Below are positions 5,712-7,702 of a stretch of 41,435 nucleotides of DNA, piece after piece. The DNA is from an uncultured Thiocystis sp. GTDB taxonomy: Bacteria; Pseudomonadota; Gammaproteobacteria; Chromatiales; Chromatiaceae. The notes below the pieces were generated by a model. It was not told the origin of the DNA and did no database searches. It was given only the letters and a program-made list of their open reading frames with translations. Numbering within the stretch: position 1 is the stretch's first letter; the number at the start of each line of letters is the position of its first letter. The position numbers were made by a program, and so were the translations under genes. Location: NCBI RefSeq assembly GCF_903866365.1, contig NZ_CAIPNF010000174.1, positions 1 through 41,435 of the forward strand, read 5' to 3'.

Positions 5712-5849
5712 GGCGTCAGGCGAATTGTGGAAAAGCGCAGACTCGGATTGCATCCGTTCGTGGTTGTCCTGCGTCGTCCGCACCCACTTTGCCAAGCAAC
5801 CAGTGCATCGCTATAGTCCTGGAATTCAAGTGCGAGGATGGAAGACGGG

Positions 5850-6800
5850 ATGCCCGAGGATCGAACGCCAGACGCGGAAGCGTCGCTGTGGGACCGCTTC
5901 GAGGCGTTGTTCCTCGACCGTTTGCAGGGTTGTCTGGAACGTCACGACTTCACCGAATACAGCAGCCATCGTCAGGCCGCCGAGACGCGGATCCTGGCCC
6001 GTTCCCGCATCTACCAGGGCGAGAAGCTCGATCGGGCGATGATTCATCAGTACACCCTGAAACCGGGTCGGGGCGGTCTGGTGATCTTCGCCTACCCGCG
6101 CCTGGAGTACGCGATTCCCTCCTTTCTGCTGCACATTGGCGGCATGCCGCCGGCGCGGACGCTGCTTATCCTGGATCTCGCGCCCTGCGCCGCGTCGCTG
6201 GACATGGCCCCTTTCGGCGCGGTGGCGCGGGCGCAGCGAGCGGCGCTGGAACTCCCCGACGCCGAGGTCGAGTGGTTGCGCCCGGTCACCTCGCCTCACC
6301 TCCTGTACTGCCCACTCAAGCCGCTGGAACCCGAGCGTTTTCTTCCGGCCTTCGCGGCCGTCGTCGAGACCTGGCGCGCGGCCTATCTCGAACCCGCCGC
6401 GCGCGACGAGGACGCGGCATCCATGAAGGCGCGTGGCGACGCGGTGCTGGCGTTGAAAAAGGTACTCTTTCGCAACGATCCGGCCTTTCCGGTCTTTACC
6501 CGCGCCTTCGGTCAGGGGATGTCCGACGTGTTCGCCGAGGCCGCGTTCGGGGGCGATCCGGGGCTGTCGATCGCCGACGCCATCGAGCCGCTGCCCACGC
6601 CGGGGAGTTGGGTCAACAAGAAGCTCGGGGTGAGCTGGCGCGCGGACGCCCAGGAACGGGTGCACGAGGCGCCGGCCTTCCTGCGGCCGATCATCCGACG
6701 CATCATCGAAAAAGAGGCGGTCAAGGAAGGGACGCCCGTCGTCACGCTGGAACTCGTCCTGCGCTGCGAAAAGAAATATCGCGGAAATATGGAGCTGTGA
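5850..6800 (+). CDS. Bilin-reductase-like (FDBR/RCCR) protein fused to a PCP-reductase C-terminal domain
   Basis: About 316 residues. Residues about 10-235 follow the outline of ferredoxin-dependent bilin reductases and plant red chlorophyll catabolite reductase: RSRIYQG, then VIFAYPRLEYAIPSFLLHIGG, then LLILDLAPCA (Asp109 sits where the family has a conserved Asp), and a final FTRAFGQGMSDVFAEAAFGG resembling the FG...LFD end. Residues about 261-312 (SWRADAQERVHEAPAFLRP, then IRRIIEKEAVKEG, then TLELV) match the PCP_red domain that ends BchB/ChlB of dark protochlorophyllide reductase. The two together suggest a tetrapyrrole-binding reductase or chaperone acting on linear or chlorophyll-derived pigments. 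No cofactor is predicted, so electrons would come from ferredoxin. ATG 5850 is favoured (GGAAG 6 bases upstream); 5838 is the alternative. The domain calls are by eye, and the PCP part is the firmer one. Confidence 0.7.
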   Translation: MPEDRTPDAEASLWDRFEALFLDRLQGCLERHDFTEYSSHRQAAETRILARSRIYQGEKLDRAMIHQYTLKPGRGGLVIFAYPRLEYAIPSFLLHIGGMPPARTLLILDLAPCAASLDMAPFGAVARAQRAALELPDAEVEWLRPVTSPHLLYCPLKPLEPERFLPAFAAVVETWRAAYLEPAARDEDAASMKARGDAVLALKKVLFRNDPAFPVFTRAFGQGMSDVFAEAAFGGDPGLSIADAIEPLPTPGSWVNKKLGVSWRADAQERVHEAPAFLRPIIRRIIEKEAVKEGTPVVTLELVLRCEKKYRGNMEL

Positions 6801-6911: not shown

Positions 6912-7332
6912 TCAAAGCAAACGCAGCGGCGCCTGCACGGGTTCGTCCTCCGCCGTCGGATTGCCACGCTCGCCCCGCAGATCGAAGTCCCACGGCAGAT
7001 CCTCGCCCATCCGATACAACCGGTAAGGCGGACGCCGACACGTCTTCACGGTCGGCGACGGCGGCAGACTGATCCCAGAGCGCCCGGACCCGATGAGCAC
7101 GGGCGCGGTCGCAATCTGCAGACGGTCGAGCTTGCCCGCCATCCTCCAGCGCGACACGGTCACGCCGCCGCCTTCGATGAAGAGGACATGCGGGCCGCGT
7201 GCGCGCAGCGCCGACAGCGCATGTTCCAGCGAGTGACCGTCGACGTCCGTGGAGAGGCCGATCATGCGCTCCTCCCAGTCCTCCGCGCGCAACCGCGCAA
7301 CCGCGTGGACTCGCAGACGATCAGGGTCGGCG
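6912..7332 (-). pseudogene. 3' fragment of a RibD C-terminal-like reductase gene, frameshifted
   Basis: The translated minus strand reads PTLIVCESTRL, then RAEDWEERMIGLS, then the diagnostic HVLFIEGGGVTVSRW, DRLQIATAPVLIGSG and YRLYRMGEDLPWDFDLR. This is the C-terminal half of a RibD-family (dihydrofolate-reductase-like, NADPH-dependent pyrimidine reductase) protein. The N-terminal half, including the start of the NADPH-binding fold, is missing and replaced by transposase sequence upstream. A perfect tandem duplication of the 8-mer GCGCAACC (7287-7294, 7295-7302) shifts the frame; removing one copy restores STRLRAEDW in a single frame. The only in-frame start left is a TTG at 7292. It is probably non-functional. 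Confidence 0.75.
7287..7302. repeat. 8-bp tandem duplication causing a frameshift
   Basis: Two adjacent copies of GCGCAACC. Deleting one copy joins the two open frames of the RibD-like remnant, so this is most likely a replication-slippage insertion that followed inactivation of the gene. Confidence 0.75.
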
Positions 7333-7640
7333 CCTCGCAGATCGCCTCGGCATCGACCGCGTCGTTCTGGTTGGATTTCACGAACGGCTTGACGAACGCG
7401 GGGCGATGCCGGCCAGGGTGGCGGCGCGAATGCCGTCCGCCTGGCTGCCCTGACTGGCTGCGTGGACGAGGCAAAAGGCCAGCTCGTCCAGCAGGATCAA
7501 CGCGGAAAGGTTCTTGAAATGATGGACATCGTCGTAAAAGGTGTTGGCCTCGCTGGTGTCGCCCTCCAGGCCATGGACGGCGAGATTCCTCTTGGCCAGC
7601 CGGATCCTGGTTCCGGTCTGCTTCCGACCGTGGAAAGTCG
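7333..7640 (-). mobile_element. IS110-family transposase N-terminal remnant
   Basis: Two minus-strand frames together resemble the N-terminal (DEDD RuvC-like) part of IS110-type transposases. The first carries RIRLAKRNLAVHGLEGD, a degraded form of the usual G-I-D-L-A-K-N...VHG opening. The second carries AFVKPFVKSNQNDAVDAEAICEA, the conserved K-x-N-K-N-D-A-x-D-A-E-A-I block. The frames change near 7395-7400, so there is at least one frameshift, and the catalytic C-terminal Ser region is absent. The element breaks off at about 7332 directly into RibD-like coding sequence. No inverted repeats or target duplication are visible; IS110 elements commonly lack both. It sits within about 65 bases of the end of the MoxR gene. 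Confidence 0.7.
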
Positions 7641-7702
7641 ACCTGATCCGGGCACGGGCTCGGTGCCCCCGCAGGGGCGGCGTGCCGTCCCTGCACAAGA
7701 TC

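Follow-up and report, generated by a model that had tools for sequence, protein, structure and literature searches.

The closest described systems for the protein considered here are the ferredoxin-dependent bilin reductases (FDBRs; PcyA, PebA, PebB, PebS and HY2; Pfam accession: PF05996), of which PcyA reduces a vinyl group of biliverdin; the RCC reductases of plants (RCCRs; Pfam accession: PF06405); and the chlorophyll enzymes BchB/ChlB and BchZ, which end in a small PCP_red domain (Pfam accession: PF08369). In purple sulfur bacteria we know of no use for a bilin reductase, nor, to our knowledge, has a route of bacteriochlorophyll turnover been established. Asp105, together with Glu76 and His88 in PcyA, is counted among the important catalytic residues of FDBRs, and FDBR-type proteins that lack the classical residues are found in heterotrophs and can still show activity, as described for the pre-PcyA proteins in the main text of Rockwell et al. 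2023 (PMC10151467).

The window analysed here, a 41,435-nucleotide stretch of DNA from an uncultured Thiocystis sp. (Chromatiaceae; contig NZ_CAIPNF010000174.1), encodes a protein in which an FDBR/RCCR-fold domain is followed by a PCP_red domain, with relatives in its own family and in a second gammaproteobacterial family, that of genome G574, designated f182. The features of the locus are as follows:

5789..5817, + strand: promoter-like element TTGCCA-N17-TATAGT, present in this or a closely similar form upstream of 11 of 14 copies examined
5838..6800, + strand: two-domain ORF in its longest reading (320 aa), a 320-codon open frame
5949..6539, + strand: FDBR/RCCR-fold domain, Fe_bilin_red match, residues 38-234 (Pfam and AlphaFold/Foldseek)
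6132..6134, + strand: codon of His99, aligned with PcyA Asp105 (His in 15/15 Chromatiaceae rows, Gln in 11/11 f182 rows)
6477..6479, + strand: codon of Asp214, aligned with PcyA Asp220 (Asp in 26/26 rows of both families)
6603..6629, + strand: linker G256-S-W-V-N-K-K-L-G264; W258 and N260 kept in both families
6636..6761, + strand: PCP_red domain, residues 267-308 (Pfam and structural match to 2kru)

Residue numbering of the ORF counts from 5838; the real gene is probably 5850-6800, encoding 316 aa, because the alignment of several relatives begins at the second ATG, at 5850. Comparison with two relatives at 95% identity gave dN/dS values of 0.12 and 0.14, with 0.12-0.16 in either part of the gene, and the window gene is under purifying selection. 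The three copies, among the 14 examined, that are missing the upstream promoter-like element all belong to Allochromatium.

In Pfam searches PCP_red matched the window protein at 46.3 bits (E 4.2e-12), over the cut-off of 32.5, and Fe_bilin_red (PF05996) at 27.2 bits (E 3.8e-6), just below a curated cut-off of 31 that eight tailed f182 relatives pass; no third family, RCC_reductase (PF06405) included, was matched up to E 10. A C-terminal PCP_red is thus held in common with BchB/ChlB and BchZ, but their nitrogenase component 1 domain (Pfam accession: PF00148) was not matched in the window protein. NCBIfam models for BchB matched the tail only (E 3e-5 and 1e-4), no NCBIfam family covered the whole protein or matched at E <= 1e-5, and sequence matches in the PDB were to PcyA1 (8xks, E 4e-4) and to the PCP_red domain of BchB (2kru, E 0.004). 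Among the open-licence PMC matches listed, titles and abstract beginnings held nothing on a fusion of Fe_bilin_red and PCP_red, and 'PCP_red' as a search word in the same collection returned unrelated papers only.

A first AlphaFold2 model (m07957360018f), built from 15 aligned Chromatiaceae rows (all 17 full-length copies except L006 and L011), reached pLDDT 86.1 and pTM 0.84, and a second (m89c3bba41b8d), built from 24 rows of the two families, reached 87.9 and 0.82. Foldseek comparison with the PDB returned 45 matches at E <= 0.001 per model (E down to 8e-10), exclusively PcyA, PebA, PebB, PebS, HY2 or RCCR, two of them being PcyA1 chains of a Chlamydomonas motor complex, placing the protein with the FDBRs by fold. 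PcyA and PebB came first by E-value, followed by HY2 and then RCCR, with PebS behind RCCR; TM to target, over both models, was 0.69-0.76 for PcyA, 0.65-0.68 for PebB, 0.64-0.66 for HY2 and 0.58-0.64 for RCCR. The likeness to FDBRs extends over about 230 residues, with an identity to most solved members of only about 15-17%. The tail superposed on 2kru, the NMR structure of the BchB PCP_red domain, with a TM to target of 0.74 in both models (rmsd 0.8 over 49 columns and 2.8 over 56); the Foldseek E-values of only 0.34 and 0.18 are weak because the target is short.

A first-pass annotation, made from the sequence alone, had read the outline of an FDBR followed by a final 50 residues resembling BchB/ChlB, an order for which it knew of no characterised enzyme. 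Domain content and order are both borne out by the Pfam matches, as is the likeness of the tail by its bit score and fold; both models carry the FDBR fold, the absence of which had been named as evidence against the reading, and the want of an NCBIfam family spanning the whole protein is in line with the remark on novelty. The accompanying RCCR label is weakened: RCCRs share the superfamily fold and stand among the matches at E <= 0.001, but with lower TM than PcyA, PebB or HY2 and with no PF06405 match to the sequence.

A match was found in 26 of 194 Chromatiaceae genomes, 17 of them with a full-length copy, one with a remnant (G091) and eight by the PCP_red end alone; the 16 other full-length copies are 55-95% identical to the window protein. 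A profile search of the 210 genomes of the order recovered the same 17 and G091, plus 38 matching only near the end, and a pattern-limited scan of one genome per species (84,980 species) gave 12 loci, all in Chromatiaceae genera (Thiocystis, Chromatium, Thiococcus, Thiorhodococcus, Imhoffiella and Allochromatium). BchB scored over its cut-off in 75 of the 194 family genomes, all 17 carriers among them, and the full-length gene was found in none of the 119 without it (Fisher p 2.8e-8 across 194 genomes, kinship not corrected for). A full copy is missing from 58 of the 75 BchB genomes, and the gene therefore has no core role.

Remnants were observed at two loci. In G091 (L085 9533-9724) a 65-codon frame retains the PCP_red end, with the FDBR part absent within 20 kb around; its flanks are RIO1 and a small gene, an arrangement also seen in Chromatium okenii LaCa. 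The second remnant, in G165 (L061 1381-1590), is one of the 38 matches near the end and aligns at 49% with residues 213-274 of the copy in A. humboldtianum; it follows a phosphoglucose isomerase gene, the position occupied by the complete gene in Allochromatium relatives, indicating that the gene is also being lost. An origin from phages or plasmids was rejected, the window protein being without a match in plasmids (E <= 0.01) or phages (E <= 1); the pattern-limited scan of viral contigs yielded no confirmed homologue, and a relative, L073, drew three weak phage records (best E 0.07).

Beyond the family, PF05996 was detected in three of 369 genomes of the class and in one of 398 drawn from the phylum, the window's own. 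The f182 genome G574 has three PF05996-type proteins of the FDBR superfamily: L070, FDBR-like; L073, of the window type without a tail, which shares most with the window protein; and L074, RCCR-like, with Glu at the Asp105 place. A profile including L073 returned 14 matches from 196 genomes of G574's order, all in f182, of which L103 (E 6e-4) is of the different, RCCR-like type; among the remaining 13, eight carry a C-terminal tail (L092, L093, L095 and L097-L101), L090, L091, L094 and L096 stop before it, and L102 is cut short. The eight tailed proteins score 35.7-78.6 bits for Fe_bilin_red, all over the cut-off, and PCP_red was matched in seven of them at E <= 0.001, always below its cut-off (22-32 bits), the exception being L092. 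Seven of the tails (L101 not compared) are 30-38% identical to that of the window protein and have a W-x-N-x-x-L linker in common, the W and N of which also occur in L101; at the level of sequence, the whole fusion is homologous in both families.

The reaction-centre family (Pfam accession: PF00124) was found in one of 14 f182 genomes (G1060, with an untailed copy), against four of four Chromatiaceae tested alongside, and in none of the eight with a tailed copy; these are listed as 70-98% complete, so that absence is likely, if not proven for each. Confinement of the two-domain protein to phototrophs was accordingly rejected. The link to phototrophy drawn in the first-pass annotation stands within Chromatiaceae, where every carrier has BchB, but not for the same architecture in f182; the annotation had named homologues spread widely in non-phototrophs with another proven role as evidence against its reading, an objection that applies in part only, to the f182 homologues in genomes without a detected reaction-centre gene, for which no role is proven.

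Catalytic residues were mapped by HMMER alignment to PcyA and by a joint alignment of 35 sequences (among them 15 Chromatiaceae and 11 f182 rows, the latter without L101 and L102). They are not those of classical FDBRs: His or Gln stands for Asp105, Val replaces His88 in all 26 rows, and the Glu76 place is His, Asn or Ser in Chromatiaceae and Glu in f182. Elsewhere the Asp105 place is occupied by Asp in five of five phage FDBRs, Glu in the RCCR-like L074 and L103, Ala in L071 and Phe in L070. The Asp214 place, which we take to be that of a second catalytic Asp in several FDBRs, is also Asp in L070, L071, L074 and L103. Of the five phage FDBRs, two have Asp there, two others Thr and Lys, and one a gap, so that this Asp is no universal mark of FDBRs. 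Sixteen positions are invariant in 24 rows, including Val82, Gly101, Gly102, Asp113, Trp179, Lys207 and Asp214; at the place of the A-ring Arg of PebB and HY2 (PMC6755814), Leu, Ile or Val is found here in the HMMER alignment. The pre-PcyA proteins, likewise FDBR-type and some of them gammaproteobacterial, include a pre-1 group also without the classical catalytic residues, and the activity described for such proteins in the main text of PMC10151467 makes activity of the window protein plausible; the PCP_red tail sets the latter apart, the term being absent from that main text.

By profile comparison in hhalign, the Chromatiaceae FDBR part aligned with phage FDBRs at E 2e-6 (probability 89%) and with the RCCR-like L074/L103 at E 1e-6 (91%), but with L071 at E 0.34. 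L071 (G452), a gammaproteobacterial protein, passes the cut-off for PF06405, the plant RCC reductase family, with 56.7 bits; membership of the RCCR family was rejected on the E-value of 0.34 together with the lack of any PF06405 match up to E 10. In a 32-row tree (L071, PebS and PcyX left out; solved plant RCCR, PebA, PebB and HY2 not included) both families fell on one side of a branch whose support, 69/91, is not decisive; a clade of Chromatiaceae with the RCCR-like proteins was not rejected (p-AU 0.295), and one of Chromatiaceae with PcyA and L070 was weakly disfavoured (0.0725). A 35-row tree including the longest branches grouped the f182 rows with L071 (support 37/66) and did not show the two-family grouping, being spoiled by those long branches. 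We treat the lineage as a separate branch within the FDBR/RCCR superfamily, probably apart from PcyA-type phage enzymes and outside the RCCR family.

The PCP_red domain recurs on a range of redox proteins. In the window genome its two other hosts are BchB (621 bits, TIGR01278) and BchZ (807 bits, TIGR02014), and a radical SAM/SPASM protein of G135 (L026 397-2520) has three copies, its nearest families being NirJ2 (302 bits) and the haem synthase AhbD (281 bits), both below cut-offs of 500. A further radical SAM/SPASM protein with PCP_red copies was seen in G005 (L023), and frames of about 675-710 aa in other family genomes, some without BchB over the cut-off, look like the L026 protein. The 14 f182 genomes searched gave one to four PCP_red matches each, on fusions with Rieske and VanA_C domains (L075, L106), with flavin-reductase-like proteins (L076, L107, L128) and with DUF169 (L126). 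Two f182 genomes, G1031 (L132 9608-14185) and G1037 (L136 5398-9992), in neither of which a reaction-centre gene was found, also hold a four-gene nitrogenase-like cluster made up of a pair of NifH/BchL-like ATPases and two component-1 subunits, one of which ends in PCP_red and in G1037 scores 150 bits for BchB (TIGR01278, cut-off 490) and 99 bits for BchZ; this cluster is possibly a new nitrogenase-like tetrapyrrole reductase. Since BchB, BchZ, and the radical SAM and DPOR-like hosts are active on tetrapyrroles or resemble proteins that are, a substrate-handling role for PCP_red is supported; because it is also found on Rieske, flavin-reductase-like and DUF169 proteins, the domain may be a general docking rather than a tetrapyrrole module.

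Gene neighbourhoods, in which families were defined by clustering and given names from the Pfam matches of one or two representatives, vary between loci. The gene follows that for phosphoglucose isomerase in seven of 12 named loci, with an SNF2 helicase gene between in six; it follows Lon in A. warmingii, is preceded by a metallophosphatase and an AAA_27 ATPase in Thiococcus, and diverges from RIO1 in the window, in G132 and at two Chromatium loci. The named neighbours in the window are RIO1, DUF427, a RibD_C fragment, AAA_3 (MoxR type), NHL and TGT, and include no haem oxygenase, V4R, Fe-S or globin gene, in contrast to the pre-PcyA clusters described in the main text of PMC10151467; the other loci differ. 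A partial RibD_C frame lies at 6915-7292 on the - strand of the window, and short frames at about 7262-7700 look like broken remnants, perhaps of a transposase. An operon reading was dropped, as neighbours vary while the promoter-like element recurs upstream, and since that element is kept across gene settings the neighbours are taken as map position rather than pathway. None of the neighbours identified goes with the gene consistently, and no neighbourhood names a pathway. In two f182 genomes the tailed FDBR gene has a Rieske + VanA_C oxygenase gene nearby, at distances of about 5 and 3 kb, a pairing not seen by eye at the tailed-gene loci L137, L141 and L143:

L140, 2197-3105 and 8218-9441: the two genes of this pair
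L135, 5425-6525 and 9532-10422: the two genes of this pair

Haem oxygenase (Pfam accession: PF01126) is present in the window genome on another contig, and in 57 of the 194 family genomes; it occurs in 13 of 17 genomes with the gene, those without being G032, G044, G049 and G101, and in 35 of 58 BchB genomes lacking the gene (p 0.26). This distribution argues against strict dependence on biliverdin from this kind of haem oxygenase, a dependence which was left unsupported, and the bacteriochlorophyll-turnover or bilin route proposed at first pass is weakened, neither neighbours nor haem oxygenase tracking the gene.

The reading preferred here, to which we give a probability of about 0.5, is that of a tetrapyrrole reductase that receives its electrons from ferredoxin, belongs to a separate FDBR/RCCR lineage and uses PCP_red as a substrate-handling module. 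Domains, predicted fold, residue conservation, distribution and selection are what the data establish, whereas the enzymatic nature, the ferredoxin feed, the tetrapyrrole substrate and the role of PCP_red are what we infer. A tetrapyrrole would be held in the FDBR-fold pocket, a small ferredoxin would supply single electrons, and protons would come from the kept Asp214 and perhaps from His99 at the classical Asp105 place; the PCP_red module would help to hold or gate the substrate, a role suggested because the domain is present on protochlorophyllide, chlorophyllide and, by resemblance, haem-precursor enzymes. The substrate is probably not obligately biliverdin, the leading guess being a compound derived from haem or (bacterio)chlorophyll, either open-chain or ring-oxidised. 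It is possible, as a more tentative proposal, that the protein represents a distinct class of tetrapyrrole reductase, in which an FDBR pocket and the substrate module of the nitrogenase-like chlorophyll enzymes act on a non-biliverdin substrate derived from haem or (bacterio)chlorophyll, in an undescribed route common to f182.

An ordinary biliverdin reductase feeding a phytochrome or bilin-binding globin, like the pre-PcyA of heterotrophs, would fit the FDBR fold of both models and the haem oxygenase of the window genome and most carriers, and pre-1 pre-PcyA is also without Glu76, His88 and Asp105, one tested protein having seemingly reduced biliverdin inefficiently (main text of PMC10151467). 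Such a function is nevertheless rather unlikely, given that four of 17 carriers are without PF01126, that haem oxygenase is not significantly commoner with the gene and lies on another contig in the window genome, and that none of the genes typical of pre-PcyA clusters (globin, V4R, Fe-S) is among the named neighbours; it also leaves PCP_red without a role. An RCCR-like reductase of a bacteriochlorophyll catabolite in purple sulfur bacteria would account for a tail as in BchB/BchZ and for BchB in every carrier, and is consistent with the RCCRs among the structural matches, the unrejected grouping with L074/L103 and an hhalign score as close to these as to phage FDBRs; the lack of a PF06405 match, the E of 0.34 against the bacterial PF06405 protein, and the same architecture in genomes without a detected reaction-centre gene make it a doubtful candidate.

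Loss of the classical catalytic residues, in a gene that stands alone while its neighbours shift, could instead point to a non-catalytic tetrapyrrole carrier, chaperone or sensor using the FDBR fold for binding only, which the invariance of Asp214, of Gly101 and Gly102 beside His99, and of Lys207 renders distinctly improbable. Least probable by far is a ring-substituent reductase of bacteriochlorophyll synthesis, for example a further kind of 8-vinyl reductase: the FDBR fold with a BchB module, found only alongside BchB in the family, would suit such a step, but 58 of 75 BchB genomes are without a full copy, homologues occur in genomes without a detected reaction-centre gene, and chlorophyllide reductase can itself carry out the 8-vinyl step.

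For purple sulfur bacteria, a conserved reductase-like protein with a BchB tail provides a concrete gene for genetic study, and, should the undescribed route be real, it would be shared with f182, whose genomes are mostly without reaction-centre genes (14 tested) and carry PCP_red on Rieske, flavin-reductase-like, DUF169 and DPOR-like proteins. That PCP_red turns up on redox proteins of several kinds offers a way to ask what the job of this small domain is, and points to an unexplored set of tetrapyrrole-like enzymes in bacteria without a detected photosynthesis gene.
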